From Candidatus Terraquivivens yellowstonensis (GTDB lineage: Archaea; Thermoproteota; Nitrososphaeria_A; Caldarchaeales; Wolframiiraptoraceae): DNA of 28,049 nt. A model generated the notes under the pieces. That model did no database searches, was not told the DNA's origin, and worked only from the letters and a program-made list of their open reading frames with translations. This document shows positions 2 to 20,142 of this stretch, piece by piece. Numbering within the stretch: position 1 is the stretch's first letter; each line of letters starts with the position of its first letter. Both the position numbers and the translations under genes were made by a program. The DNA is taken from assembly GCA_023539445.1 (NCBI GenBank), contig JAKCEW010000011.1:1-28049 (forward strand), in the 5' to 3' direction.

Positions 2-745
2 GGCACCGAGCTCTTGATTTATCACACGGATAGAGTCTCCTCCTTTGATGTTGTTGGTGCACTCTTCGCCGTATTAGATCTCGAAAAATCCCCAAAGATT
101 AGCAACATCAAGACCGGCGACTTGATAGTCGGCCTCAGGAGCGATGGTAGAGCAGTTTACGAACATAAAGAAAACAGCGGGATAATGTGTAATGGAATAA
201 GCCTCGCAAGACACGTCCTCCTGAAACAAGAATATTATCAACGCTACCCAGAGATCGGAGAGCCTGAAATCGCGGAGAAATATTGTGGAAGGTTTTCGCT
301 TGATAGCTTCATAGACGAACTAGACATGACACTCGCAGGCGCGCTCCTATCTCCAACCAGAATCTACGCACCGGTCGTGGCCGAAATAATCATGAGAAAT
401 CCGGAAGGAGTTAAGGCTATGTGTCATAACACTGGTGGAGGATTAACGAAGATAAAGAGAATCGGAAAGGGGATAAGATACGTTAAGAATAACCTCCCGG
501 AACCTAGCCCAATATTTAAGTTAATCCAGAGAGAGGGAGGGGTCCCATGGAAAGAGATGTATGAGACATTCAATATGGGAATAGGGTTCGAGGTCATAGT
601 CGAGAAGGGTCATGAGGATGAGATAATCCAGATAGCAGAAAAATATAAGGTAACATCACAAGTCATCGGGAGAATAGAATCCGCGGAAAAATCAACCAAC
701 GAAGTTGTAATAAAAAGTAAACATGACACATTCATCTACTACTAA
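2..745 (+). CDS. purM: Phosphoribosylformylglycinamidine cyclo-ligase (AIR synthase), 5'-truncated
   Basis: The product closes the imidazole ring of FGAM to give AIR, with ATP hydrolysis, in cytosolic purine synthesis. About 247 residues are present and the frame runs off the left edge, so the N-terminal domain is incomplete. The visible part has the PurM order: a GD-hydrophobic-GL segment followed by a NGISLARHVLL helix (archaeal equivalent of the NGFSLVR helix), the CHNTGGGLTKIKR segment, and near the C-terminus MYETFNMGIGFEV, a hallmark of the C-terminal AIRS domain. An internal TTG occurs at 14, but the reading frame is continuous upstream of it, so that is not taken as the start. The gene ends convergently with the corrinoid reactivase. 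Family assignment is firm; the true start lies outside the window. Confidence 0.9.
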   Translation, partial: GTELLIYHTDRVSSFDVVGALFAVLDLEKSPKISNIKTGDLIVGLRSDGRAVYEHKENSGIMCNGISLARHVLLKQEYYQRYPEIGEPEIAEKYCGRFSLDSFIDELDMTLAGALLSPTRIYAPVVAEIIMRNPEGVKAMCHNTGGGLTKIKRIGKGIRYVKNNLPEPSPIFKLIQREGGVPWKEMYETFNMGIGFEVIVEKGHEDEIIQIAEKYKVTSQVIGRIESAEKSTNEVVIKSKHDTFIYY

Positions 746-839: not shown

Positions 840-2645
840 TCAAATACGGTCTGAGAAAGGGATCGATTTGAGGAATTCCTTCTGAAAATCTGGCTCAGCA
901 GCCAGTTCGATATGTTCGATCTTCTGAGCTAACTCATAGGCTAAGCTCCTCAAAGACTTGGATAAGAGCATTGCCCTAGCTCCAGCACCTGCAGAATTCC
1001 CGACGAGTCTTATACGAGAAACATCGATATCCGGATAGAGTCCCAAGGTCCTCGCCGATAGAGGATTCGTAAAGAAGCCGAAGGCCCCTGCAATGTAAAG
1101 CCTCCTAATATCCGAGGGGTTAACTCCGAGTCTCTTCATCAAAATGTTCACCCCAGTCCTTATCGCTGCCTTCGCGAGCTGAATTTCACGAATGTCCTTC
1201 TGGGTGAAGACTATGTCCTCACCCGTCGCGGTATTTTCGCCGTACTCGATCACGAACTCCAAGTATCCATCCTTTCCCATCCTAACACGATCAGTCAGCT
1301 CTCTTAATCTTCCAGACTCGTCTATTATTCTTGCTGAAAGGAGTTCTGCAACTACATCCACAACTGCGGATCCTGTGAGGCCAATGGGTCTCGTACCCCC
1401 TATCACCGTGTATTTCACTTCACCATTTGATGAGATCTCTATCCTATCTATTGCTCCTCTCGCGGCTCTCATGCCGTGGGTTATATGAGCACCCTCGAAT
1501 GCAGGGCCGGATGCTGTTGAACATGCAAGGAATTTGTCACCTTTTTTCAGAACGATCTCAGTGTTGGTCCCGATGTCTATCAGCATTTCAGGATCGTCTC
1601 CCCTGAACATTCCGGTCGCGATTATATCGGCGAGCACGTCGGACCCTATGTAACCAGCGATAATTGGGGGAATGAATACCATCGCTTCGGGATTCCCTAA
1701 GAGTTCGAGTTCGCATGCCTTAACATTCATAGGGGACCTTGTAACTGGAGTGTACGGAAAGTATGCAAGAGTTTTCGGTTCGAGCCCTAGAAGAAAGTGT
1801 TGCATCGCGGTATTCCCAACAAGGACGAACTCGTATACGTTCTCGGTTATGGATCGTGTTGCATCGCAGACCGTCGTAATCAACTTGTTCAAGCAATCAA
1901 TAATCTTTGTCCTAAGCTCCTCAACACCGTTCCTTAACGCATAGTCTATCCTTGAGACCACATCTTCACCGTATGCTATCTGCGGGTTTAGATCGGATGC
2001 GACGGCAAGAAGTGCTCCACTTTTTAGATCGACCAGATACCCTGCAACCTTTGTCGTTCCTATGTCTGCTGCGAATCCTAACGGCCTGGACTCGTCACGT
2101 ACATCAATCACTTCATCGTTGTAGACCACCAGCTCCTTCTCCGATTCAGAACCCGAGAACTTCGAAATTTTCCTCAAGGCTGTGAGCCGGAATGAAAATT
2201 CTCGTGGTAAATTCTCGACGATAGAGCCGTAAGCCCTCGCAGGGATCTTGACCCTTAAGCACGTGATTGCTGGATCGAACCGCTCCTCTAGTATCTCGCC
2301 TTCGACAAGAAGCGAGTGTTCCTCGAGCCTGCTCTCAGATGGGACAAAGACCGTCACCTCACCTTCTCTGACTATCCTGCACCTGCAAGCAAGCCTGTAT
2401 CCTTCTTGAATCCTCCTCGTTCCGATCACAAAGAATTCATTATCTGTAGGATCCGAGAGTTTATCCTTACCTTCAATTATCTTCACGAGGCACTTGCCAC
2501 ATAACGCTTTCCCGCCACAGGGTCCAGCCAAATCAACGTTAGCCCTACGGGCTAGCTCAAGTAAACCCTCTCCTAAACTCGCATCAACCCTCTTCTCATC
2601 GGGTAGAAATCTTACCTGCGGCATGACGACATTCTTTAAACTCAC
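840..2645 (-). CDS. RACo-like [2Fe-2S] ASKHA ATPase, reductive activator of corrinoid proteins
   Basis: Corrinoid methyltransferase systems lose activity when Co(I) oxidises to Co(II). RACo-type proteins reduce it back at the expense of ATP. The N-terminal ~90 residues form a plant-type [2Fe-2S] ferredoxin domain with C43, C49 and C52 (GPCGGKALCGKC) and a distal cysteine pair at 87/89. The long C-terminal part is the ASKHA ATPase fold with GFAADIGTTKVAGY (about residue 190) and a second phosphate-binding segment EMLIDIGTNTEIVL. At 601 residues the length fits the RACo/DUF4445 family. Methanogen methylamine systems instead use RamA, which carries C-terminal [4Fe-4S] ferredoxin motifs. The start is GTG; Met8 (ATG, first base 2624) is a good alternative because the ferredoxin fold begins just after it. 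Its divergent neighbour is the corrinoid protein it presumably reactivates. Confidence 0.85.
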   Translation of the reverse strand: MSLKNVVMPQVRFLPDEKRVDASLGEGLLELARRANVDLAGPCGGKALCGKCLVKIIEGKDKLSDPTDNEFFVIGTRRIQEGYRLACRCRIVREGEVTVFVPSESRLEEHSLLVEGEILEERFDPAITCLRVKIPARAYGSIVENLPREFSFRLTALRKISKFSGSESEKELVVYNDEVIDVRDESRPLGFAADIGTTKVAGYLVDLKSGALLAVASDLNPQIAYGEDVVSRIDYALRNGVEELRTKIIDCLNKLITTVCDATRSITENVYEFVLVGNTAMQHFLLGLEPKTLAYFPYTPVTRSPMNVKACELELLGNPEAMVFIPPIIAGYIGSDVLADIIATGMFRGDDPEMLIDIGTNTEIVLKKGDKFLACSTASGPAFEGAHITHGMRAARGAIDRIEISSNGEVKYTVIGGTRPIGLTGSAVVDVVAELLSARIIDESGRLRELTDRVRMGKDGYLEFVIEYGENTATGEDIVFTQKDIREIQLAKAAIRTGVNILMKRLGVNPSDIRRLYIAGAFGFFTNPLSARTLGLYPDIDVSRIRLVGNSAGAGARAMLLSKSLRSLAYELAQKIEHIELAAEPDFQKEFLKSIPFSDRI

Positions 2646-2689: not shown

Positions 2690-3370
2690 ATGCTGTCGGA
2701 ATATCTCGAAAAGCTGAAGGTTGCGGTAATTGAGGGAAATGCTGAGCAGGCGAGGGAGGCCGCGATAGCCCTAAAGGAGGCAGGGATGTCTCCACTAGAA
2801 ATAGTGAACGCCGCGATAAAACCAGCGATGGATGAGATGGGTAAAAGATACGAGAGGCTCGAGGTATTCCTCCCGGACTTGGTCCTTGCAGGAGAGGCGG
2901 CCCAAGAAGCCTTAAATGTGATACTTCCGAAGGAAGGCGCGGAGTCGCTTATTAAGGCGAAAGTCGTGATCGGGACGATCTACGGTGATATACATGACAT
3001 TGGTAAGAACATAGTTGCCGCTATGCTGAGCGCGAACGGATACAAGGTGATAGACCTTGGGAACGACGTACCGGCGGAGAAGTTCGTTGAAGTCGCTAAG
3101 AAGGAAAGCGCGAAGATCATAGGAATCTCGTGTCTGCTCACCCCGTCCATGTATTATATGAGGGACGTGATAAAGAGGCTCGAGGAAGAAAATCTCCGGA
3201 AGAACTTCTATGTAATTATCGGAGGGGCAGCAGTTTATCCAGAATGGGCAAAGGAGATAGGTGCGGATGGTTGGGCAAAGGATGCCGAGAGAGCTGTCGA
3301 ACTTTGTGACATGCTCGTCGAAAAGGGCGAGGAGGTCCCCAAACCGATAATCCTTGGGGAGTGGCGCTAA
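2690..3370 (+). CDS. Corrinoid protein of a methyltransferase system (MtaC/MtmC/MtbC family)
   Basis: This small cytosolic protein carries the cobamide that shuttles methyl groups from substrate methyltransferases to an acceptor. Residues 1-85 form the helical B12-binding-2 cap domain. From about residue 90 comes the Rossmann-like B12-binding domain with the GDIHDIGKN signature, in which His102 is the lower axial cobalt ligand (DxHxxG), followed by the conserved SCLLTPSMYYM and IIGGAAVYPEWAKEIGADGW segments. The 226-residue length matches MtmC/MtaC proteins. It starts at ATG and is the first gene of a three-gene operon with two different methyltransferases downstream, so it is probably the common methyl carrier for both. 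Which family name is best cannot be decided by eye. Confidence 0.9.
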   Translation: MLSEYLEKLKVAVIEGNAEQAREAAIALKEAGMSPLEIVNAAIKPAMDEMGKRYERLEVFLPDLVLAGEAAQEALNVILPKEGAESLIKAKVVIGTIYGDIHDIGKNIVAAMLSANGYKVIDLGNDVPAEKFVEVAKKESAKIIGISCLLTPSMYYMRDVIKRLEEENLRKNFYVIIGGAAVYPEWAKEIGADGWAKDAERAVELCDMLVEKGEEVPKPIILGEWR

Positions 3371-3386: not shown

Positions 3387-4769
3387 ATGGACCTCTTGTT
3401 CAACATCCTCGACAAAACTCTAACTGGCCCACCAATTGAGAAACGGGAGTTTGAGTTTAAGCTGGTCCCGAAACTTACGAAAGAAGTCCTTAAGGAATTC
3501 GGTCTAGAAAAAACTTATGATCCGAACAATCCAATAAACACAGACCTAACCCTTGCAAAAGACTTCTACCATGCTGGATACGAGCTCGCGCTGAGGCTTG
3601 GAATGTTCTGCCCTGACACGAAGAGGAGGGTTATCTTCACGGATGAGGAACTAAAGGAGTCACTGAGGGACGTCCCTACCGAAGTAACTCTCGGCTATGG
3701 GAAGGATAAAGTCACGATAAGAAGCAGAGTCCCGGAAGACGGGAAACCCCCCGTCGCAGAAGGCTCGGCTCTCGGACTCTCAGTCAGCGAAGAGTACTTC
3801 ATACCGCTTTGCATGGCGATAGCGCAGTATAAAGTTATTGACATAATTCTCGCTCCGACACTCGACATGATAAACGGGCGTGAGATTAGGGCAAGAACTC
3901 CCTATGAGACTATCATGGGGATGTATGAGGCGAAGTACGTCAAGGAAGCGCTCAGAAGGATCGGAAGGCCTGGAATGCCGTTACATGGTGTTGAGGGCGC
4001 GCCAACAGAATACGGATACTTCTCCGGATTCCTATGGGGCGGGTTCGAACCTGACAGGACGATAGGGATAGCCCTAATACCGGAGCCGATTTCACTTCCT
4101 TACCAGATACTACATAGAACGGTTGTCAACCATCTCATCGGATCTCCACTCGAGGCAGGGCACATGCTCAGCATAGGTGGATACTTCGGGCCTCCAGAGG
4201 GGGCTGTTGTAGGAGCAGTCGCGGCCCAAATACTCCAAGTCGCATCCATGTTCCCAACGGTCGTCGAGAGTACAATCCTTGACGCAAGGTACTCAGTGAA
4301 TACGAATAGGGAGGCCTTATGGGCAACAAGCACGAGTATGCAGGCGAGAACCCTCGGTAATAAGGTCATGAATCTTGGGATAACTAGCCAGATCAGCGGA
4401 CCTTGCACCGATATGCTTTTGTACGAGACGACGACGATAGCGATTGCGGATTCCGTTTCTGGTGTTGCAATAGAGATTGGGACAAGACCTACTGGGTGTA
4501 GATACAAGAATTACGCGAGCGGGCTTGAGAACAAATTCTTCGCAGAGGTCTTGAAATCCTCTGCGAAGCATCTCAAGCTTTCCGACGCGAATGAGATAGT
4601 CAAAGCGATCCTTCCAAAGTACGAGGACAAGTTGAAAAACCCACCCAAAGGTAAGAGCTTTCCCGAGTGCACAGACCTTAAGACGCTCCAGCCTGCGAGA
4701 GAATGGCTTGAAATATACGAGAGAGTTTGGAAGGAGCTTGAGGATTTGGGGCTTCCAAGGTGGAAATGA
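3387..4769 (+). CDS. MtmB-family methyltransferase with Tyr in place of pyrrolysine
   Basis: MtmB moves the methyl group of monomethylamine to its corrinoid protein using pyrrolysine at residue 202. This 460-residue protein aligns with MtmB (458 residues) throughout: the INTDL...AGYELALRLGMFCPDT region, GYGKD, TPYET, GRPGM, GGYFG, SGPCTDM and the C-terminal KGKSFPEC...WLEIYERVWKELEDLGL. From GRPGM the alignment is ungapped up to the catalytic position, where MtmB reads TSLSA-Pyl-G and this protein reads GAPTE-Tyr209-G. The codon at 4011-4013 is TAC and there is no internal TAG. ATG 3387 is preferred over an upstream TTG at 3354 because a purine-rich AGGGGGAA lies 8 bases before it and the length then fits. 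Without pyrrolysine it probably does not use methylamine, and its substrate is unknown. The family assignment is firm. Confidence 0.85.
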   Translation: MDLLFNILDKTLTGPPIEKREFEFKLVPKLTKEVLKEFGLEKTYDPNNPINTDLTLAKDFYHAGYELALRLGMFCPDTKRRVIFTDEELKESLRDVPTEVTLGYGKDKVTIRSRVPEDGKPPVAEGSALGLSVSEEYFIPLCMAIAQYKVIDIILAPTLDMINGREIRARTPYETIMGMYEAKYVKEALRRIGRPGMPLHGVEGAPTEYGYFSGFLWGGFEPDRTIGIALIPEPISLPYQILHRTVVNHLIGSPLEAGHMLSIGGYFGPPEGAVVGAVAAQILQVASMFPTVVESTILDARYSVNTNREALWATSTSMQARTLGNKVMNLGITSQISGPCTDMLLYETTTIAIADSVSGVAIEIGTRPTGCRYKNYASGLENKFFAEVLKSSAKHLKLSDANEIVKAILPKYEDKLKNPPKGKSFPECTDLKTLQPAREWLEIYERVWKELEDLGLPRWK

Positions 4770-6128
4770 TTGCGCTTCGACCATTTAGCGTACAAAGAGC
4801 CGGACGACTTGGTATTCGGGTTCGCAAAGTATCCGCTGAGATACGGTCTAGGGCTCACAGTCGGTGATGGGAAGGTCGTACCTGAAGTAAAGTATTTGCT
4901 TAAGCCAGGCCTCGAACGGAGTCCGGAAACTTTTATCGAGGAATACAAGAAGACGACTGTCTCGATAATGGAAAGAGCAGCAAATCTTGGATTTTACGAT
5001 GTCCAGCTAGAGACAGAATTCGTCGAGCCGATGACTGTGAACCCGAAGCTCGGAGCGTTAGTCATCGAGGCTCAGAAGACAATCATGGATGATTATCATA
5101 AGAAATTTGGGATAAGGACGGCGCTTAGAGCGACAATCGCTGATGTCAGGAGGTTCGGTGAGGGTCTACGCGCTGGTAATCACTTCGAGCTTATGATGCG
5201 ATCTTTCGAAGAGGCGGCCCGCGCAGGGGCTGACTTGCTCTCGATTGAATCAAGAGGGGGGCAAGAGGTCTTCTCATACTCAATTATCAGGAATGATTTA
5301 CTGGGCATACTGTTCTCGCTTGGAATCCTTGCGCCACGGGATGTCAGATTTCTCTGGAGTGAGATCGTGAAAGTCTCGGGAAATGCAATACCTGCGGGAG
5401 ATACTGCCTGCGCATTGGCAAACAGTGCAATGGTTCTTGCGGATGGATTGGTCGCTAGGAAGATACCACATGTCTTAGCGGCTGTTATAAGGGCGATGTC
5501 TGCTGTGAGGACGCTCGCATGTTACGAAGAAGGGGCTAAGGGTCCTGGAAAAGATTGCGCCTACGAGAACGTAATCGTTAAGACGATAACCGGGTATCCG
5601 ATGAGCATGGAGGGGAAGACCTCTGCATTCGCGCACTCAAGCTTAGTTGGGAATATCTCGGCTACAGTTTGTGACCTTTGGTCAAACGAGACGATAGCCG
5701 TAGACGATACGTTCGGAGGTAAGACGTCTGCGATAATATTCGAGATGCTCGGATATGATACATTGCTCATGAACACCTCGATAAGGTCAGGTAGGGAGAA
5801 GATTCTCAGGGACATGCTCGTCGAGTCGGACAGGTACCGCGATCCCCAAGCATTAATCTTAGCCCCAGATTCCGCTTTCATGATTGCAAAGAAAATAATA
5901 GCGGAGAGGGGGGACTACTGGAGATGCCTCGAGGCCGCCTTGGAAGCTGTGAAGATAATTGAGGATAACATGGATAGGCTTGCGTTACCCGATGCCGAAA
6001 AGAGGCAACTCCATTTGATCAAGAACTTCTTTGAAAACGCACCTGACGAGGATAGATTGATCGAAGAATCTATTAAGCGGTACAAAGACAAGGTCAGAGA
6101 CTTCAAACCTTCAAACTACGAGCTCTGA
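4770..6128 (+). CDS. mtaB: Methanol:corrinoid methyltransferase
   Basis: MtaB is a zinc TIM-barrel enzyme that activates methanol and transfers its methyl group to Co(I) of the partner corrinoid protein. The 452 residues align end to end with Methanosarcina MtaB: DHLAYKEPDDLVFGFAKYP at the start, PEVKYLLKPG, ERAANLGF, LETEFVEPMTVNP, SIESRGGQEVF, AGDTACALANSAM, GPGKDCAYENVI and a C-terminal IKRYKDKVRDFKPSNY. The zinc ligands are present: Glu160, Cys214 and Cys263, corresponding to Glu164, Cys220 and Cys269 in M. barkeri. The start is TTG directly after the stop of the MtmB-like gene, implying translational coupling. An ATG at 4766 is out of frame. Its stop abuts that of the convergent ABC permease with no gap. 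Methanol as substrate is likely; another small alcohol or methyl ether is possible. Confidence 0.9.
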   Translation: MRFDHLAYKEPDDLVFGFAKYPLRYGLGLTVGDGKVVPEVKYLLKPGLERSPETFIEEYKKTTVSIMERAANLGFYDVQLETEFVEPMTVNPKLGALVIEAQKTIMDDYHKKFGIRTALRATIADVRRFGEGLRAGNHFELMMRSFEEAARAGADLLSIESRGGQEVFSYSIIRNDLLGILFSLGILAPRDVRFLWSEIVKVSGNAIPAGDTACALANSAMVLADGLVARKIPHVLAAVIRAMSAVRTLACYEEGAKGPGKDCAYENVIVKTITGYPMSMEGKTSAFAHSSLVGNISATVCDLWSNETIAVDDTFGGKTSAIIFEMLGYDTLLMNTSIRSGREKILRDMLVESDRYRDPQALILAPDSAFMIAKKIIAERGDYWRCLEAALEAVKIIEDNMDRLALPDAEKRQLHLIKNFFENAPDEDRLIEESIKRYKDKVRDFKPSNYEL

Positions 6129-7064
6129 TCACCTTTGTCTCTTGTAGGATCTGGCGAGCGCGGCTGGACCCCTAACCTTCCTGCCGAGTGCGAGAAGGAC
6201 TATTATCGTGAATAGGTAGGGGAGCATTAGGGCAAGCTGTGGAGGGATATATGTTAAGCCGAGTGCCTGTATCCTAAGCTGAAGGGCATCAACCATGCTG
6301 AAAAAGAATGATGCCGCGATGAGCAGCATCGGGTTCCACCTCGCCAGAATCACGAGGGCTATCGCAACGTAACCCCTTCCTTGAGTCATATTATCGAGGA
6401 ACATGTTGTAGTAACCTATCGAGAGCAAAGAGCCGGCAAGACCGGCTATCGCCCCCTCAGCGAGTAGGAGAGTATACCTCGTGAGGTTCACGTTTATCCC
6501 CAGACTGTCCGCAACTTGGGGATCCTCTCCCATTGCCCTTATCTTAAGACCGATGCCCGTTTTTGAGATAAGCCACCAGCCGAATATGGCAAGGATTATT
6601 GCAAAGTACGTGTGTGGTAGATGCCCGAAGATCAACTTCCCTACAACCGGCATCTCTGAGAGCGCACCCAGGTCGATCGGTTTAAGGGTCTCCTTGATGT
6701 GCGGAGGTATGGGGCTGACATACCAGCCGAATGATGCTCTGTAGAGGTAAGAGGTTATCCCGATCGCTAAGAGGTTCATGGCAAGGCCTGTGACCATCTG
6801 ATTCAACGCTAACGATACTGTAAGTATCGCAAAAAGAGCACAGAATACCATCCCTGAGAGGGCGGCGATAAATGATGCGAGTCCCAGATCCCCATAATAA
6901 TAAGCACCCATGAATGCTGCAAATGCTCCAATGAGCATCGCGCCCTCGACTCCTAGATTAAGGACTCCGCTTCTCTCAACAAGCAACTCGGCAATTCCAG
7001 CTAAAAGGACTGGTGTCATCAGCGATATTGCAGAGAATATCAGGCCGGAGATGTCAATGCTCAA
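6129..7064 (-). CDS. BMP-type ABC transporter permease (NupQ/YufQ-like)
   Basis: This is the second membrane subunit of a branched-chain/simple-sugar superfamily importer of the type that takes up nucleosides and related solutes with a BMP-family binding protein. The 311 residues are strongly hydrophobic with about eight to nine predicted membrane segments. They carry the family signature ERSGVLNLGVEGAMLIGAF near residue 30 and the cytoplasmic coupling stretch KIRAMGEDPQVADSLGIN after the middle of the protein. It starts at TTG and overlaps the upstream permease by 11 bases. It is the last gene of the importer operon and its stop abuts that of the methanol methyltransferase gene on the other strand. 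Confidence 0.85.
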   Translation of the reverse strand: MSIDISGLIFSAISLMTPVLLAGIAELLVERSGVLNLGVEGAMLIGAFAAFMGAYYYGDLGLASFIAALSGMVFCALFAILTVSLALNQMVTGLAMNLLAIGITSYLYRASFGWYVSPIPPHIKETLKPIDLGALSEMPVVGKLIFGHLPHTYFAIILAIFGWWLISKTGIGLKIRAMGEDPQVADSLGINVNLTRYTLLLAEGAIAGLAGSLLSIGYYNMFLDNMTQGRGYVAIALVILARWNPMLLIAASFFFSMVDALQLRIQALGLTYIPPQLALMLPYLFTIIVLLALGRKVRGPAALARSYKRQR

Positions 7065-8127
7065 CCTTTCTCAATCCTCCGATTATTCTATGGATGAGTT
7101 TTTCCTCGAGAAAGTATCCGAGGAGGATGAACAGTATTATGAGGGCCTGAATTATGCCAGCCATACCGACAGGGACCCCGACCATCCTATGCATCGTCGT
7201 GCTTCCGTTCATTATCCCACCGAGGAAGAACGATGTTGCTGCAATCAATAACGGATTTAGATATCCTAGGAGTGCGACCGCTATCCCTGTATAGCCGTAC
7301 GGAGATGTCGGCGGAGATATCTCAAGTCTCATCTTGTGCTGTATCCCAAGGACCTCAACGCCTCCTGCCATTCCAGCCATGAAGCCGCTAACAAGCATCG
7401 CGATTATTATCATGCGCACGCTCTCAATGCCGGCATATTTCGCAGTCTTTTCACCCGAGCCGAGTATTTCGAGCTTCAGGCCGAGTGCGGTCCTCTTCAA
7501 TAAGAACCACATGATGGGGGTCATGATCAAGAACGCGAGTACAACCCCGAAATGTAAACGGGTCCCAGGAACGACTGTTGGAAGCCACATGTTGTCAGGT
7601 ATTGTCGTAGTTTCCGGGAAAAGGGATACGGGGTCTCTGAGTGGCCCGTTAAGTAGGTAGCTGACAAAGTATATCGCTATGTAATTAAATATGAGCGTCG
7701 TTATCACCTCGTTTATTCCGTAAATTGCCCTTAGGATTGCGGGTATAAGTGCCCAGAGTGCACCCGCTATCCCAGAGACTACTATCAATACAGGGAGCGC
7801 TATCGGTGATGGGACTCCGCTTATGTAAAGTGCGAGCGTTGCTGCAACTATGCCTCCTATGTAGAGCTGACCTTCAGCACCTATATTCCAGATTTTTGCA
7901 GAAAACGCGACCGAGAGTCCCAGCGATACGAGAAGTAACGGGGTTGCCCTCACGAAGGTTTCCGGAATCAGCGCTGGTGAGAAACCTCCGTAGAAAAGCC
8001 AGAAAAGGGCTTCGCCAGGATTTTTACCGGAGAGCGTGATTAGCATAGTGCAGAATATAAACGCAAGCCCTATGCTTGACAATGCCAGCAAAGCTCTTAC
8101 GAGATTCACCTGCCGCTCGATGCTCAA
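7054..8127 (-). CDS. BMP-type ABC transporter permease (NupP/YufP-like)
   Basis: This is the first membrane subunit of the importer and pairs with the following permease. It has 357 residues with multiple membrane helices, the NIGAEGQLYIGGI signature of this permease family at about residues 80-95, and the coupling stretch EILGSGEKTAKYAGI that contacts the ATPase. The TTG start overlaps the ATPase stop as TTGA, implying coupled translation. The two permeases begin with the same motif, TTG-AGC-AT(C/T), encoding MSI. The substrate cannot be read from the permease. Confidence 0.85.
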   Translation of the reverse strand: MSIERQVNLVRALLALSSIGLAFIFCTMLITLSGKNPGEALFWLFYGGFSPALIPETFVRATPLLLVSLGLSVAFSAKIWNIGAEGQLYIGGIVAATLALYISGVPSPIALPVLIVVSGIAGALWALIPAILRAIYGINEVITTLIFNYIAIYFVSYLLNGPLRDPVSLFPETTTIPDNMWLPTVVPGTRLHFGVVLAFLIMTPIMWFLLKRTALGLKLEILGSGEKTAKYAGIESVRMIIIAMLVSGFMAGMAGGVEVLGIQHKMRLEISPPTSPYGYTGIAVALLGYLNPLLIAATSFFLGGIMNGSTTMHRMVGVPVGMAGIIQALIILFILLGYFLEEKLIHRIIGGLRKVEH

Positions 8128-9617
8128 GCCATATACCCGCCAGCCGCGAGCATGTGTATTCCTATCAATTTCGGGTCGAACTCAGCCCTTTCAAATATCT
8201 TTACGATTCTTCCACCACTTATTACTGCGATCCTATCGCTAAGCTTCAAAATTTCGTCTAAGTCAGAAGATATCAGGATTATTCCAACACCTTTTGAGGC
8301 AAGCTCAGAGAGTGCATTCCTAACCATCTCGGCCGACCTCGCATCTAAGCCTGCGGTCGGTTGCTCAGCTATAAGGACTTTTGTCGATTTTAGTATCTCG
8401 CGCCCGACTATTAGTTTCTGGATGTTCCCGCCAGAAAGATACTTTACCGGAGCACCTAGACTTGGGGCCTTCACTCCAAGGAAAGACACGACCTTCTGCG
8501 CAAATTCTCCGATCTTCGCGAAGTCCAAGGCCTTGATTCGGCCCTTCGAGTTTTCATCAATCGATCTTATGATGCTGTTGACCATGACACTAAGTGACAT
8601 CGCCACCCCTAACTCGACCCTATCTGCCGGAACATAGCTTGGCCTGAAACCAGAATTCTCGCCAATGAACACAACCTCGCCGGATTTCGGGGATCTGAGC
8701 CCCGCGATCGCCTCGGCGAGTTCCCTCTGCCCATTCCCCTCAACCCCAGCTATCCCTAAGACCTCTCCAGCCCTAAGGTCGAAGGAGACTCCCTTGACCT
8801 TCTCGACTCCGAGGTCGTCGGAAACAACTAAATCCTTCACGATGAGAATAGGCTTGTCGCTCGGAGTTCTTGGTCTATCGGGCAATGGAACAATTCTCTC
8901 ACCGATCATAAGCTCGACAAGCTGCTCCTCATCCATAACCTCACTTCTCTTAAGCTTCGCGATGACCCTTCCTTCCCTCATCACAGTTATTCGATCGCTG
9001 ACCTCAAGAGCTTCGCGTATCTTATGTGTAATGAACACTATGCCGTGACCCTCGGACTTCAGCTGCTTCAATGCTTGGAAGAACCTGTCGATTTCAGGGC
9101 CGCAGAGTAAAGAGGTTGGCTCGTCAAATATCAGGACTCTAACCTTCCTGAGTAGGAGTCTGATAATCTCGATCCTCTGCCTTTCCCCGGCAGATAGCGC
9201 ATCAACTGGAACGTCAAGCCTCAGATCGAAGCCAAGCCTTTTTGACAGTTCACCGACTTCTACGATCAGTTGATCTTTACTGAGCTTTCGATCGAAGAGT
9301 CCGAGCCTCAAGTTCTCGAGGACTGTCATGCTCGGTATCAGGGCGAAGTGCTGGTGAACCATCCCTATACCGTACTTTAATGCGTCCGCCGGTGAACCGA
9401 AGTTGACCCGCTCTCCGTTGACATATATCTCCCCGCTCGTTGGCTTGAGGCCCCCGCTCATTATTTTCATAAGGGTTGTTTTACCAGCGCCATTCTCGCC
9501 AAGGAGTGCATGGATCTCTCCCTCTTTCACGTCAAAGTCAACATTCCTGTTTGCAACAATACCTCCCGGGTATACCTTTGTTATCTTCCTAAGCTCGATT
9601 ATAGGCATACGGATCAT
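8124..9617 (-). CDS. ABC transporter ATP-binding protein, tandem NBD (NupO/YufO-like)
   Basis: This is the energising subunit of the importer, with two nucleotide-binding domains in one 497-residue chain, as in sugar and nucleoside importers of this superfamily. The first domain is intact: Walker A GENGAGKTT (40-48), Q89 in MVHQHFALIP, signature LSAGERQ (141-147), Walker B VLIFDEP and switch His in FITHK. The second has a degenerate Walker A (GVEGNGQRE) but keeps LSGGNIQK and an EQPTAGLD Walker B region, a division typical of the family in which one site does most of the hydrolysis. Met4 (MPIIELRKI, first base 9608) is an equally plausible start. It lies 28 bases after the binding-protein gene in the same operon. 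Confidence 0.9.
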   Translation of the reverse strand: MIRMPIIELRKITKVYPGGIVANRNVDFDVKEGEIHALLGENGAGKTTLMKIMSGGLKPTSGEIYVNGERVNFGSPADALKYGIGMVHQHFALIPSMTVLENLRLGLFDRKLSKDQLIVEVGELSKRLGFDLRLDVPVDALSAGERQRIEIIRLLLRKVRVLIFDEPTSLLCGPEIDRFFQALKQLKSEGHGIVFITHKIREALEVSDRITVMREGRVIAKLKRSEVMDEEQLVELMIGERIVPLPDRPRTPSDKPILIVKDLVVSDDLGVEKVKGVSFDLRAGEVLGIAGVEGNGQRELAEAIAGLRSPKSGEVVFIGENSGFRPSYVPADRVELGVAMSLSVMVNSIIRSIDENSKGRIKALDFAKIGEFAQKVVSFLGVKAPSLGAPVKYLSGGNIQKLIVGREILKSTKVLIAEQPTAGLDARSAEMVRNALSELASKGVGIILISSDLDEILKLSDRIAVISGGRIVKIFERAEFDPKLIGIHMLAAGGYMA

Positions 9618-9645
9618 CTCAAAAAAAATAAGAGAAAGTTATCGC

Positions 9646-10710
9646 TCACGCCCATCTTGCAGGATCCCACATTTCGTCTTTTGGCTCGTACACGACAAGC
9701 TCTCCAGAGATTATCTTTTGCTGAACCTCATTAACAAGTTGTAGGACATCTTGTGGTACCTCGTTCTTCAAAGTTGGGTTCCAGACAAGCTTAGCCCACC
9801 CTTCTTTCATTCCCCAGTTGTATATTCCACCATGCCAAGTTCCTTCACGCTTCATCTCGACTAGATGCTTAACGAATGTCTTTAGATCCCAAACAACGCT
9901 TGCGAGAACGACATCTTCAGCAAGCTTGGATTGGTCAACGATGTTGCCGAAGCAGTAGACCTTCTTGCCCTCCTTTAAAGCCTCTCTTGCTGCCTCGAAT
10001 GGTCCGTAGCGCTCTGCGTAAATGAAGTCAGCGCCTTGATCTATTAGGGCCTTCGCAGCTTCTTTGCCCTTGATCGGGTCGAACCAGCTTTCGATGAAGA
10101 TTACGCTAATCTTGACATCCGGGTTAACGGACCTTGCTCCTTTCGCGAATGCATTCACGAGCCTATTCACGTCAGGAACGGCATATGCCGTTACCACGCC
10201 CACCACATTGGTCTTTGTCATTTTACCTGCAATGATCCCGGCCAAGTATGCTGCATCTTGGATCCAGTAGTCATATAGGACCACGTTTGGTGGATACTCT
10301 ATATCCGTCGGCCCAGAGCCCTGAGCGAAGCAGACATTCGGGAATTCCTTAGCAAGCTTTACAGTCGTTTCCCAAAAGCCCCAGCTATGAGGTACGATTA
10401 TGTCGTAGCCCACGGCAATATATTCTCTGGCCACCCTCTCGACGTCTGCGGGCTCCACCTTTTCAGTATAGACATACTCTATGTTCAAATTTTCCTTGGC
10501 CCAAACCATCGCCTCGTGCATAACAGTGTTCCACGGCTCCTCAATCGGTGTTGTGTAGATCACGGCAACCTTGATTTTCTTCTCAACAGGTGCCGGAGGT
10601 GGCATAGTAGTCAACCACACAGCCACGGCGGCAACGACCACGACTACGGCTACAACAATCGCGACGATCGTTAGCTTAGAAATTCCAGAGCGTTTTTTAA
10701 TCATATCCAT
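9646..10710 (-). CDS. BMP/Med family substrate-binding protein, membrane-tethered
   Basis: This is the extracytoplasmic receptor of the importer. The BMP family (PnrA, Med and BmpA are relatives) mostly binds purine nucleosides. After a 20-residue hydrophobic N-terminal helix and a proline-rich linker, the mature part begins KIKVAVIYTTPIEEPWN and contains DIIVPHSWGFWETT, YDYWIQDAAYLAGIIAGKMTKT and the DFIYAERYGPFEAAREA ligand-lobe region. The N-terminus KKRSGISKLTIVAIVV lacks a lipobox. Its SG-ISK junction before the hydrophobic stretch resembles a class III (prepilin-like) signal peptide, as on sugar-binding proteins of Sulfolobus. It is the first gene of the importer operon, divergent from aldehyde ferredoxin oxidoreductase. 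The ligand could be a nucleoside or something related to the neighbouring one-carbon genes. Confidence 0.85.
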   Translation of the reverse strand: MDMIKKRSGISKLTIVAIVVAVVVVVAAVAVWLTTMPPPAPVEKKIKVAVIYTTPIEEPWNTVMHEAMVWAKENLNIEYVYTEKVEPADVERVAREYIAVGYDIIVPHSWGFWETTVKLAKEFPNVCFAQGSGPTDIEYPPNVVLYDYWIQDAAYLAGIIAGKMTKTNVVGVVTAYAVPDVNRLVNAFAKGARSVNPDVKISVIFIESWFDPIKGKEAAKALIDQGADFIYAERYGPFEAAREALKEGKKVYCFGNIVDQSKLAEDVVLASVVWDLKTFVKHLVEMKREGTWHGGIYNWGMKEGWAKLVWNPTLKNEVPQDVLQLVNEVQQKIISGELVVYEPKDEMWDPARWA

Positions 10711-10799: not shown

Positions 10800-10877
10800 T
10801 TGGTAGTTGAGGCTCGCTTGGCTCAAAACACCCTTGTCCAATTAAATACATTAATGGCCAACTTTATTTTGTTTAGT

Positions 10878-12722
10878 ATGATTGGTTACAACAAACTTTC
10901 TTATATAGACTTGCAAACCGGCAGGGTCGAACTAAAGGACGTTGAGGAGGAGCTTGCGTACGGTTTTATAGGAGGTCGCGGATGGGCCGCCCACATACTG
11001 TTCAAAGAACTCGATAACATAGTCGACGGCCTTCACCCTTCCAACGTGCTCATCGTTGCAACCGGACCGTTAACCGCCGTACCATTCCAGAGCGGAGGAA
11101 AGACAACGTTTGCTGCCATAAGCCCACAGACTGGAATATATGGTGATAGTAATGTAGGCGGTTTTTTCGGTTATAAGATGAGGAGGGGCGGAATAGACGC
11201 TTTGGTGATTAAAGGTGCATCACCGCAACCCGTCTACTTACTCGTGGCCAATGGTAAGGTAGAGATTCTTGAGGCGGAGAAGCTTTGGGGTCTTAATTCG
11301 CAGGAGACCGATGCAAAGTTGGTGAGCGAATACGGCGATTGTTCTGTTGCGTCAATAGGTATAGCGGGCGAAAGGCTTGTGAAGTTCGCTTGCATTAATG
11401 TAGACTGGTCAAGGAAAGGGATGCGCCATGGCCAAGCAGGAAGGACGGGCATGGGTGCGGTCATGGGGTCGAAAAAGTTGAAAGCGATAGTCGCGATGGG
11501 TGACAAAGATATCAAGATTGCAGACGAGGGGAGGTTAAGGGAAGCGGCAAAAAAGCTTCAGAGGATGGTAAAGGAGAGTGTAAGTTACGAGGCTTGGATG
11601 AGGTACGGAACGTTAGCTACGCTCGAGTGGTCAAACAAGGCAGAGTGTCTGCCAACTTACAATTTCCAAAAAACGGTTTTCGAGTATGCAGAGAACATAG
11701 GCGGCGATGCTATGGAGAAGGTGAAGGTGTTTACAAGGGCATGTTCCAACTGTATAATTCCGTGTGAACATGTTGTGCGGTTTAATTTGGACGGGGAAGG
11801 CGAAATTGGTATAGAGTATGAGACGGCAGCCATGCTGGGCTCAAACCTCGGGCTGAGGAGTATTGAGGAAGTTGCAAAAGCGAACTACCTCTGCGATTAC
11901 TACGGATTGGATACCATCAGCACAGGTTCTGTGCTTGCGTTCATCATGGAGTGTTATCAAAGGGGGCTGATCACGGAGAAGGAGCTAGGCCTAGCACCAA
12001 AGTGGGGCGATGTTGAAGCCGTCTGTAAAATGATAAGCATGATTGCGAAAAGGGAGGGGTTCGGCGACCTGATGGCAGAAGGTGTAAAGGTTTTAGCTGA
12101 ACATATAGGAAAGGGCTCCGAGGCCTTCGCCATGCATGTGAAGGGCCTAGAGATCAGCGCTTACGATCATAGGGCTGCGACCGCTATGGCCTTAAGCTAT
12201 GCAACTTGCGATATCGGTGCGCATCACAACAGGTCTTGGGCGATAACCTACGACCTTGAGGTTGGTAGGGACAAATATACGGAGGATAAGGTTAGGAAAG
12301 TCATCTACCTTCAGCATATAAGACCGTTATTCGACATGCTAGGTGTTTGTAGGATTTACTGGGAGGAGTTTGGTGTTGACCCTAACATTTATGCAGAGGC
12401 GTACTCTGCAGTTACCGGAAAAGAGTTCACATTCGATGACTTATTATTCAGGTCGGAGAGGGTCTGGAATTTGACGAGGGTGATCGCAATAATCCGCAAA
12501 GGCATAAGTATAAAGGATGACCTACTGCCAGAGAGGGATTTCTCCGACCCCGTTATAGGGAGATATATGAGTGGCGCAAAGTTAGATAGAGATAAATTCA
12601 TAGAAATGTTGAAGACATATTACACTCTCAGAGGTTGGGACGAGCTCGGAAGACCGACCCCTGAGAAACTCATGAAACTTGGCTTGGAAGAGGCTGCCAG
12701 AAAGCTTTACGGCAAGAATTAA
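10878..12722 (+). CDS. aor: Tungsten-containing aldehyde:ferredoxin oxidoreductase
   Basis: The enzyme oxidises aldehydes to carboxylic acids, passing electrons to ferredoxin, using a tungsten bis-pyranopterin and one [4Fe-4S] cluster in the cytosol. With ATG 10878 as start the protein has 614 residues. Its cluster cysteines fall at C289, C292, C296 (RACSNCIIPCEH) and C491 (LGVCRI), almost superimposing on C288, C291, C295 and C494 of the Pyrococcus enzyme. This supports that start over upstream in-frame TTG (10800) and ATG (10854) codons. Other AOR marks are GFIGGRGWAAH near the N-terminus, the GPLTAVPFQSGGKTTFAAISPQTG pterin region, GRTGMGAVMGSKKLKA, and DIGAHHNRSW. It is transcribed alone, divergent from the BMP importer. 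The substrate aldehyde is not evident; formaldehyde or amino-acid-derived aldehydes are family possibilities. Confidence 0.92.
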   Translation: MIGYNKLSYIDLQTGRVELKDVEEELAYGFIGGRGWAAHILFKELDNIVDGLHPSNVLIVATGPLTAVPFQSGGKTTFAAISPQTGIYGDSNVGGFFGYKMRRGGIDALVIKGASPQPVYLLVANGKVEILEAEKLWGLNSQETDAKLVSEYGDCSVASIGIAGERLVKFACINVDWSRKGMRHGQAGRTGMGAVMGSKKLKAIVAMGDKDIKIADEGRLREAAKKLQRMVKESVSYEAWMRYGTLATLEWSNKAECLPTYNFQKTVFEYAENIGGDAMEKVKVFTRACSNCIIPCEHVVRFNLDGEGEIGIEYETAAMLGSNLGLRSIEEVAKANYLCDYYGLDTISTGSVLAFIMECYQRGLITEKELGLAPKWGDVEAVCKMISMIAKREGFGDLMAEGVKVLAEHIGKGSEAFAMHVKGLEISAYDHRAATAMALSYATCDIGAHHNRSWAITYDLEVGRDKYTEDKVRKVIYLQHIRPLFDMLGVCRIYWEEFGVDPNIYAEAYSAVTGKEFTFDDLLFRSERVWNLTRVIAIIRKGISIKDDLLPERDFSDPVIGRYMSGAKLDRDKFIEMLKTYYTLRGWDELGRPTPEKLMKLGLEEAARKLYGKN

Positions 12723-18592: not shown

Positions 18593-20117
<1,525 letters not shown>

Positions 20118-20142
20118 TCAAGCCTGGAGAGGTACGCCGCAA

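Follow-up and report, generated by a model that had tools for sequence, protein, structure and literature searches.

Introduction

MtqB of Methanococcoides methylutens Q3c, a homologue of the monomethylamine methyltransferase MtmB that lacks pyrrolysine (Pyl), demethylates tetramethylammonium and choline, as published in 2026 (PMC13044021). In a dichloromethane degrader, a Pyl-less MtmB homologue was induced more strongly than any other protein (PMC9768040), and in the Methanomethylicia, mtmB is one of the genes that have been cited in favour of methylotrophic methanogenesis (PMC10033731). As such, MtmB homologues without Pyl are not new, and they make up the great majority in the Thermoproteota: MtmB homologues are present in 47 of the 398 genomes of this phylum, and the genes of 45 of these 47 have no internal TAG codon. 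The two others, G184 and G243, are the only genomes that combine a TAG-type MtmB with pylB. Since so few of the MtmB-bearing genomes have the TAG codon, both the label "monomethylamine methyltransferase" and the inference of methylotrophy are unsafe wherever Pyl is missing.

In this work, we have analysed a stretch of 28,049 nucleotides from the thermophilic archaeon Candidatus Terraquivivens yellowstonensis, referred to as the window. It presents a setting that looks new: A methylamine-type corrinoid protein, an MtmB homologue with His at the Pyl site and a zinc-type MtaB are encoded in one operon, which is convergent with the genes for a BMP-type ABC transporter (Table 1).

Table 1. Positions of the genes and codons of the window that are discussed in the text
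Feature	Coordinates	Strand	Remarks
AIR-synthase/PurM-related gene, C-terminal part, truncated by the start of the window	2-745		Weak match, 119 bits (purM cut-off 236)
RACo-type corrinoid reductive activase, 2Fe-2S domain	840-2645	-	Divergent from the operon
Corrinoid protein, methylamine-type MtxC, B12-binding domains	2690-3370	+	GDIHDIG fits DxHxxG; ends 16 bases before the start of the MtmB-like gene
MtmB-family (PF05369) corrinoid methyltransferase without Pyl, 460 aa	3387-4769	+	Open reading frame, Pfam and sequence matches, relatives
Codon CAT, His200	3984-3986	+	Takes the position of M. barkeri Pyl202 (four alignments)
Codon TAC, Tyr209	4011-4013	+	Nine residues downstream of the Pyl column (codon reading, alignment)
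MtaB, methanol:corrinoid methyltransferase family	4770-6128	+	Glu/Cys/Cys zinc ligands conserved; first base directly after the mtmB stop
BMP-type ABC transporter, entire span	6129-10710		Convergent with mtaB
ABC transporter permease 2	6129-7064	-	Convergent with mtaB
ABC transporter permease 1	7054-8127	-
ABC transporter ATPase	8124-9617	-	Two ATP-binding domains
BMP-family (PF02608) substrate-binding protein (Bmp), MtmB-linked subfamily	9646-10710	-	Pocket W-S-W-D-W-E-R
Aldehyde:ferredoxin oxidoreductase (AOR), tungstoenzyme family	10800-12722	+	Divergent from Bmp; cassette membership uncertain
SSU rRNA gene, archaeal, complete	18595-20118	-	Usable for taxonomic placement

Results

The MtmB-like gene of the window

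The reading frame starts with ATG at 3387, stops at 4767-4769 and contains no in-frame TAG. An alignment with MtmB over the whole length had been claimed in a first-pass annotation of this DNA, and this is borne out by the Pfam profile MtmB, which matches the product from position 3 to 450 of 450 (E 8.7e-80, 269 bits, cut-off 25), and by a phmmer match to the crystallised MtmB of M. barkeri (E 4e-52). The gene is present in four further genomes at 85-90% identity; its relatives include Candidatus Terraquivivens tengchongensis, T. tikiterensis and one Aigarchaeota MAG. Because the comparison with the four relatives gives a pS of 0.79-0.85, i. e. saturated synonymous sites, and a pN of only 0.07-0.10, this substitution pattern identifies a real gene under strong purifying selection rather than a chance frame or a pseudogene. 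Moreover, the MtmB-like protein is the best-conserved member of the cassette, with the identity of 85-90% compared to 74-80% for the corrinoid protein, 65-72% for MtaB and 54-62% for the RACo-type activase. An AlphaFold2 model built from four sequences was too poor to be used (pLDDT 30, pTM 0.24).

An MtmB gene that is 80% identical, encodes His200 and is truncated at the contig end was found on CALHIW010000050, which belongs to a MAG with the label Methanomethylicia. The contig may be misbinned from Terraquivivens, or the gene may have been transferred recently. A plasmid search yielded no match.

Histidine at the pyrrolysine site

The first-pass annotation had read the codon at 4011-4013 as TAC for Tyr209, which is correct, and had placed this residue on Pyl202 of MtmB. 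Instead, His200 takes this position in four alignments, of which two are anchored on MtmB genes from the same phylum that contain a true TAG. First, phmmer aligns residues 109-211 of the window protein with residues 111-213 of 1L2Q and 1NTH without a gap, and Pyl202 therefore corresponds to residue 200. Accordingly, the motif order is GRPGM-G-V-Pyl202 in MtmB, with Pyl three residues past the Met, and GRPGM-P-L-His200 in the window. Second, His200 falls into the Pyl column in a MAFFT alignment of 67 homologues. Third, the same placement results when the window clade is compared by hhalign with aligned Pyl-containing MtmB proteins. The real TAG codons of the MtmB genes of G184 and G243 fall into the column of His200. 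Tyr209 aligns with M. barkeri residue 211, in a column that holds twelve different letters among the homologues, and we have rejected Tyr at the Pyl site on the basis of this variability and of the phmmer, MAFFT and hhalign alignments. The annotation itself had held that another residue at this site would overturn its assignment, and at the sequence level His200 is such a residue. Its remark that TAC is a single transversion away from TAG becomes moot, as the codon at the Pyl site is CAT, two changes from TAG. The annotation had also asked whether the clade uniformly has Tyr or another sense codon; the site is indeed uniform in all six sequences of the window's kind from Terraquivivens and its kin, but it encodes His (CAT or CAC). 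Elsewhere among the aligned homologues, the Pyl column contains Leu, Ile, Asn, Met or Thr; His is confined to the clade of the window's family (f1), and Tyr occurs in none.

The Pyl site is not the only loss. In place of Glu229, Glu259 and Gln333 of MtmB, which we take to be the active-site residues that hold the Pyl-amine adduct, the window protein has Gly, Gly and Ile; both TAG-bearing relatives keep all three of them. Furthermore, pylB was not found at the curated score in the genome of the window or in its tested relatives. The genome itself gives only a radical-SAM background hit of 21.9 bits (cut-off 348.2), compared to 425 and 400 bits in two genomes used as positive controls. By codon 202, by the three adduct residues and by pylB, the gene lies outside Pyl-dependent MtmB sensu stricto. 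That a sequencing or assembly error conceals a TAG codon has virtually no probability left, and we have rejected this explanation: His is encoded at the site in five more independent records, in addition to the negative result for pylB.

Since Pyl chemistry is not possible for this protein, another substrate is probable. In this respect, the first-pass annotation was right to see a relative of MtmB that cannot use this chemistry. Its parallel to the Pyl-less relatives of MttB that act on glycine betaine also holds in so far as such a case exists for MtmB, but this case has already been published as MtqB (PMC13044021). The fold and family of the protein are those of MtmB, and monomethylamine might thus still be the substrate, with His200 in place of Pyl. 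We regard this as very unlikely: Not only Pyl but also the equivalents of Glu229, Glu259 and Gln333 are replaced, and a dedicated BMP-type importer would be unexpected for methylamine.

In a phylogenetic tree with weak deep branches, the Pyl-containing sequences form one clade (100/99) and the f1 sequences another (100/100). As a long stem leads to the f1 clade, no nearest characterised relative can be named. In the MCR-bearing Thermoproteota (L050-L059, family f8), Pyl-less MtmB genes occur as tandem pairs with Ile/Leu and Asn at the Pyl column. At another locus (L032/L080, G201:C78:4674-7556), two tandem MtmB paralogues read as one open frame of 961 amino acids, which reflects a fusion or an assembly error.

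A corrinoid operon that includes MtaB

Of a three-component corrinoid methyltransferase system, the window encodes an MtxB protein and its cognate corrinoid protein in one operon, plus an activase. The corrinoid protein is nearer to the methylamine and betaine types (192, 182 and 166 bits) than to MtaC (133 and 124 bits), and it is the only MtxC-type corrinoid protein that was found in the genome. The zinc ligands of M. barkeri MtaB are Glu164, Cys220 and Cys269. The motifs ESRGGQEVF, GDTACA and GPGKDC of the downstream gene product, aligned with 2I2X, keep these ligands, and the neighbour is thus a genuine MtaB, as had been annotated. The genes for the MtmB-like protein and MtaB co-occur in exactly the same five of the 22 genomes of the family.

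The abutting genes and the intact zinc site of MtaB would also fit an operon that is only a methanol system, with the MtmB-like protein as a non-catalytic partner of MtaB. This is improbable: No other protein of the cassette is as well conserved as the MtmB-like protein, the corrinoid protein is of the methylamine rather than of the MtaC type, and the same transporter accompanies MtmB pairs that have no MtaB in the families f8 and f6 (see below). On the far side of the transporter, AOR is a possible but inconstant member of the cassette: It also adjoins MtmB genes in several genomes of f8 and does not do so in the other genomes of Terraquivivens.

A BMP-type importer accompanies Pyl-less MtmB genes

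The main new result of our work is the link between Pyl-less MtmB genes and one BMP-type ABC transporter in three archaeal families. The transporter genes are located beside the MtmB genes in all five cassette-bearing f1 genomes, in the f6 genome G154, and in f8, where they are found at every locus with a tandem MtmB pair whose contig extends far enough to show them. In three f8 genomes with MtmB and Bmp on different contigs, a Bmp protein of the linked subfamily is present. At the f8 and f6 loci, the partner is the tandem pair of MtmB paralogues, and MtaB is missing. All seven f8 genomes tested are MCR-positive, and f8 probably corresponds to the Methanomethylicia. No such link was seen in the loci of the MtmB genes of f4, f20, f29 and f50 that were read.

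The Bmp proteins that accompany MtmB group together in a single clade (support 0.957), and their binding pocket is invariant and consists of W45, S97, W98, D165, W194, E220 and the following Arg (numbering of AtzT, with pocket positions taken from PMC6834077). The full set is present in none of the 17 unlinked BMP proteins of the phylum, including the paralogues in G010 and G154; the nearest one, in G003, has Ala97, Phe98 and Glu165. The neighbourhood could have been inherited as a block. Given a conserved importer with a unique pocket, ligand binding by Bmp is a direct and cheap route to the substrate.

The pocket bears on the idea that the window protein accepts choline, tetramethylammonium or a similar quaternary ammonium compound and binds it in the manner of MtqB, which would be a special case of our main proposal. 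Among the Pyl-less MtmB homologues, an activity has been shown for MtqB alone (PMC13044021), and three Trp residues together with Asp and Glu would be compatible with a cation cage. However, the window clade is isolated on its long branch, and two of the three Trp positions are aromatic in purine-binding BMP proteins as well. Moreover, the known choline importers use other families of binding proteins. We therefore consider this special case possible but doubtful.

Fate of the methyl group

Targeted searches of the cassette-bearing Terraquivivens genome found none of the tested methyl sinks, i. e. Mcr, MtrH, Pterin_bind (pterin methyltransferase) and MTHFR, and no second methyltransferase is linked to the cassette. 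An MtaA-like URO-D protein is encoded elsewhere in the genome, unlinked to the cassette, and scores 210 bits against a cut-off of 244. It has an Asn-x-Cys motif at a position where we would expect His-x-Cys with the zinc-binding His; it is also present in cassette-free congeners and missing from the cassette-bearing genome G008. Core methionine-synthase-like genes occur in the relatives (Pfam was tested on the copy of G009).

These observations can be read in terms of transmethylation: The MtmB-like protein and MtaB would share one corrinoid protein, and MtaB would pass the methyl group of the imported compound to water, yielding methanol, or, in reverse, the compound would be methylated from methanol. 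The two proteins always occur together in f1, the genome yielded only a single corrinoid protein of the MtxC type, and the tested sinks were not detected. On the other hand, the genome does encode an MtaA-like protein, core methionine-synthase-like proteins are present in relatives, and an acceptor enzyme may have escaped recognition, as has been proposed for the Brockarchaeota (PMC8065059). We regard transmethylation as rather unlikely; MtaB might discharge the methyl group as methanol. If MtaB were the sole methyl acceptor, this would amount to a novel arrangement within C1 metabolism.

Discussion

We propose that the window encodes an active, Pyl-free methyltransferase of the MtmB family that acts on an imported methylated compound, and we would give this proposal a probability of roughly 60%. 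A small methylated compound would be taken up by the adjoining BMP-type ABC transporter, and the MtmB-like enzyme would move its methyl group to Co(I) in the corrinoid of the neighbouring MtxC protein. The RACo-type activase would keep the corrinoid reduced by reductive repair, and MtaB would load the same corrinoid protein with methanol or unload it. This proposal, in which the activity, its direction and the substrate class are inferred, draws on the family and fold matches, the operon with its activase, the purifying selection, the transporter linkage and the distinctive clade and pocket of Bmp, and it has a precedent in the Pyl-less MtmB homologue that acts on quaternary amines (PMC13044021). 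Against it stand the lack of a linked second methyltransferase, the missing tested methyl sinks and the unlinked position of the MtaA-like protein, as well as a possible inheritance of the transporter neighbourhood as a block and the long stem of the f1 clade.

A methylated compound other than methylamine is probable, because His occupies the Pyl site and the gene clusters with a corrinoid protein and a dedicated importer. We do not assume a Pyl-type use of monomethylamine; most likely, the substrate is an N-methylated compound that is either cationic or heteroaromatic. Three Trp and two acidic residues in the pocket of Bmp would suit a cationic N-methyl compound; the ancestry of Bmp among purine binders and the neighbouring genes in G154 would suit an N-methyl heterocycle. 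We make no choice between the two, and the derivation of the pocket from purine binders (AtzT, 3S99) counts against fixing the substrate class.

It is tempting to speculate about a demethylation of an imported N-methylated heterocycle, e. g. a methylated purine base, that is independent of folate and CoM: A purine-type BMP protein with a re-cut pocket would deliver the compound, the His-type MtmB would transfer the methyl group to the corrinoid protein, and MtaB would form methanol from water. This route is unlikely as a whole, but it has partial support from the position of the linked Bmp proteins as sister to guanine and adenine binders. In G154 (L129, G154:C39:9500-18000), the MtmB/BMP cluster is followed by genes for an MtaA-like URO-D protein and then for xanthine-dehydrogenase-type FAD, FeS and Mo subunits. 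These are accompanied by a gene for an amidohydrolase of the allantoinase/hydantoinase/dihydroorotase type, which we count toward the heterocycle route.

The genes beyond Bmp differ among the Terraquivivens genomes. Three of them (L119, L120, L121) have a glycyl-radical enzyme, its activase and a gene of the Fe-ADH family where the window has AOR; in L119, the glycyl-radical enzyme scores above the cut-off for the NCBIfam model of trans-4-hydroxy-L-proline dehydratase. A glutamate-semialdehyde-type dehydrogenase is present there in one genome. We have dropped hydroxyproline betaine as a substrate, regarding these genes as neighbourhood noise, since the window has AOR in their place.

How does this locus compare with the known systems? 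M. barkeri MtmB (PDB 1L2Q, 1NTH, 1TV2) shares with it the homology over the full length, the GRPGM motif and an adjacent corrinoid protein, whereas the window differs by His200, by the loss of Glu229, Glu259 and Gln333, by the lack of pylB and by the presence of an importer and MtaB in the cassette. MtqB likewise lacks Pyl, is homologous to MtmB and has a corrinoid protein of its own, but it serves methanogenesis together with MtbA and CoM, and no BMP-type importer has been described for it (PMC13044021); no Mcr was found in the genome of the window. The Pyl-less MtmB pairs of f8 have the same BMP transporter subfamily beside their corrinoid protein and MtmB genes, but two MtmB paralogues, with Ile/Leu and Asn at the Pyl site, take the place of MtmB and MtaB, and MCR is present. 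MtgB and its relatives, the Pyl-less members of the MttB family, follow the logic that we propose for the window protein, in that the loss of Pyl goes along with another substrate; this family is, however, separate from MtmB and not homologous to it (PMC6855144). The MtaB/MttB systems of the Brockarchaeota are also corrinoid methyltransferases of thermophilic archaea that are not methanogens and for which no acceptor enzyme has been identified, but they involve MttB rather than MtmB, and no transporter link has been described (PMC8065059). For the importer, finally, the closest solved relatives of the cassette Bmp are the purine-binding proteins AtzT (6PI5) and Brucella BMP 3S99, from which its pocket differs by the replacements of F98 by W, E165 by D and N/D220 by E.
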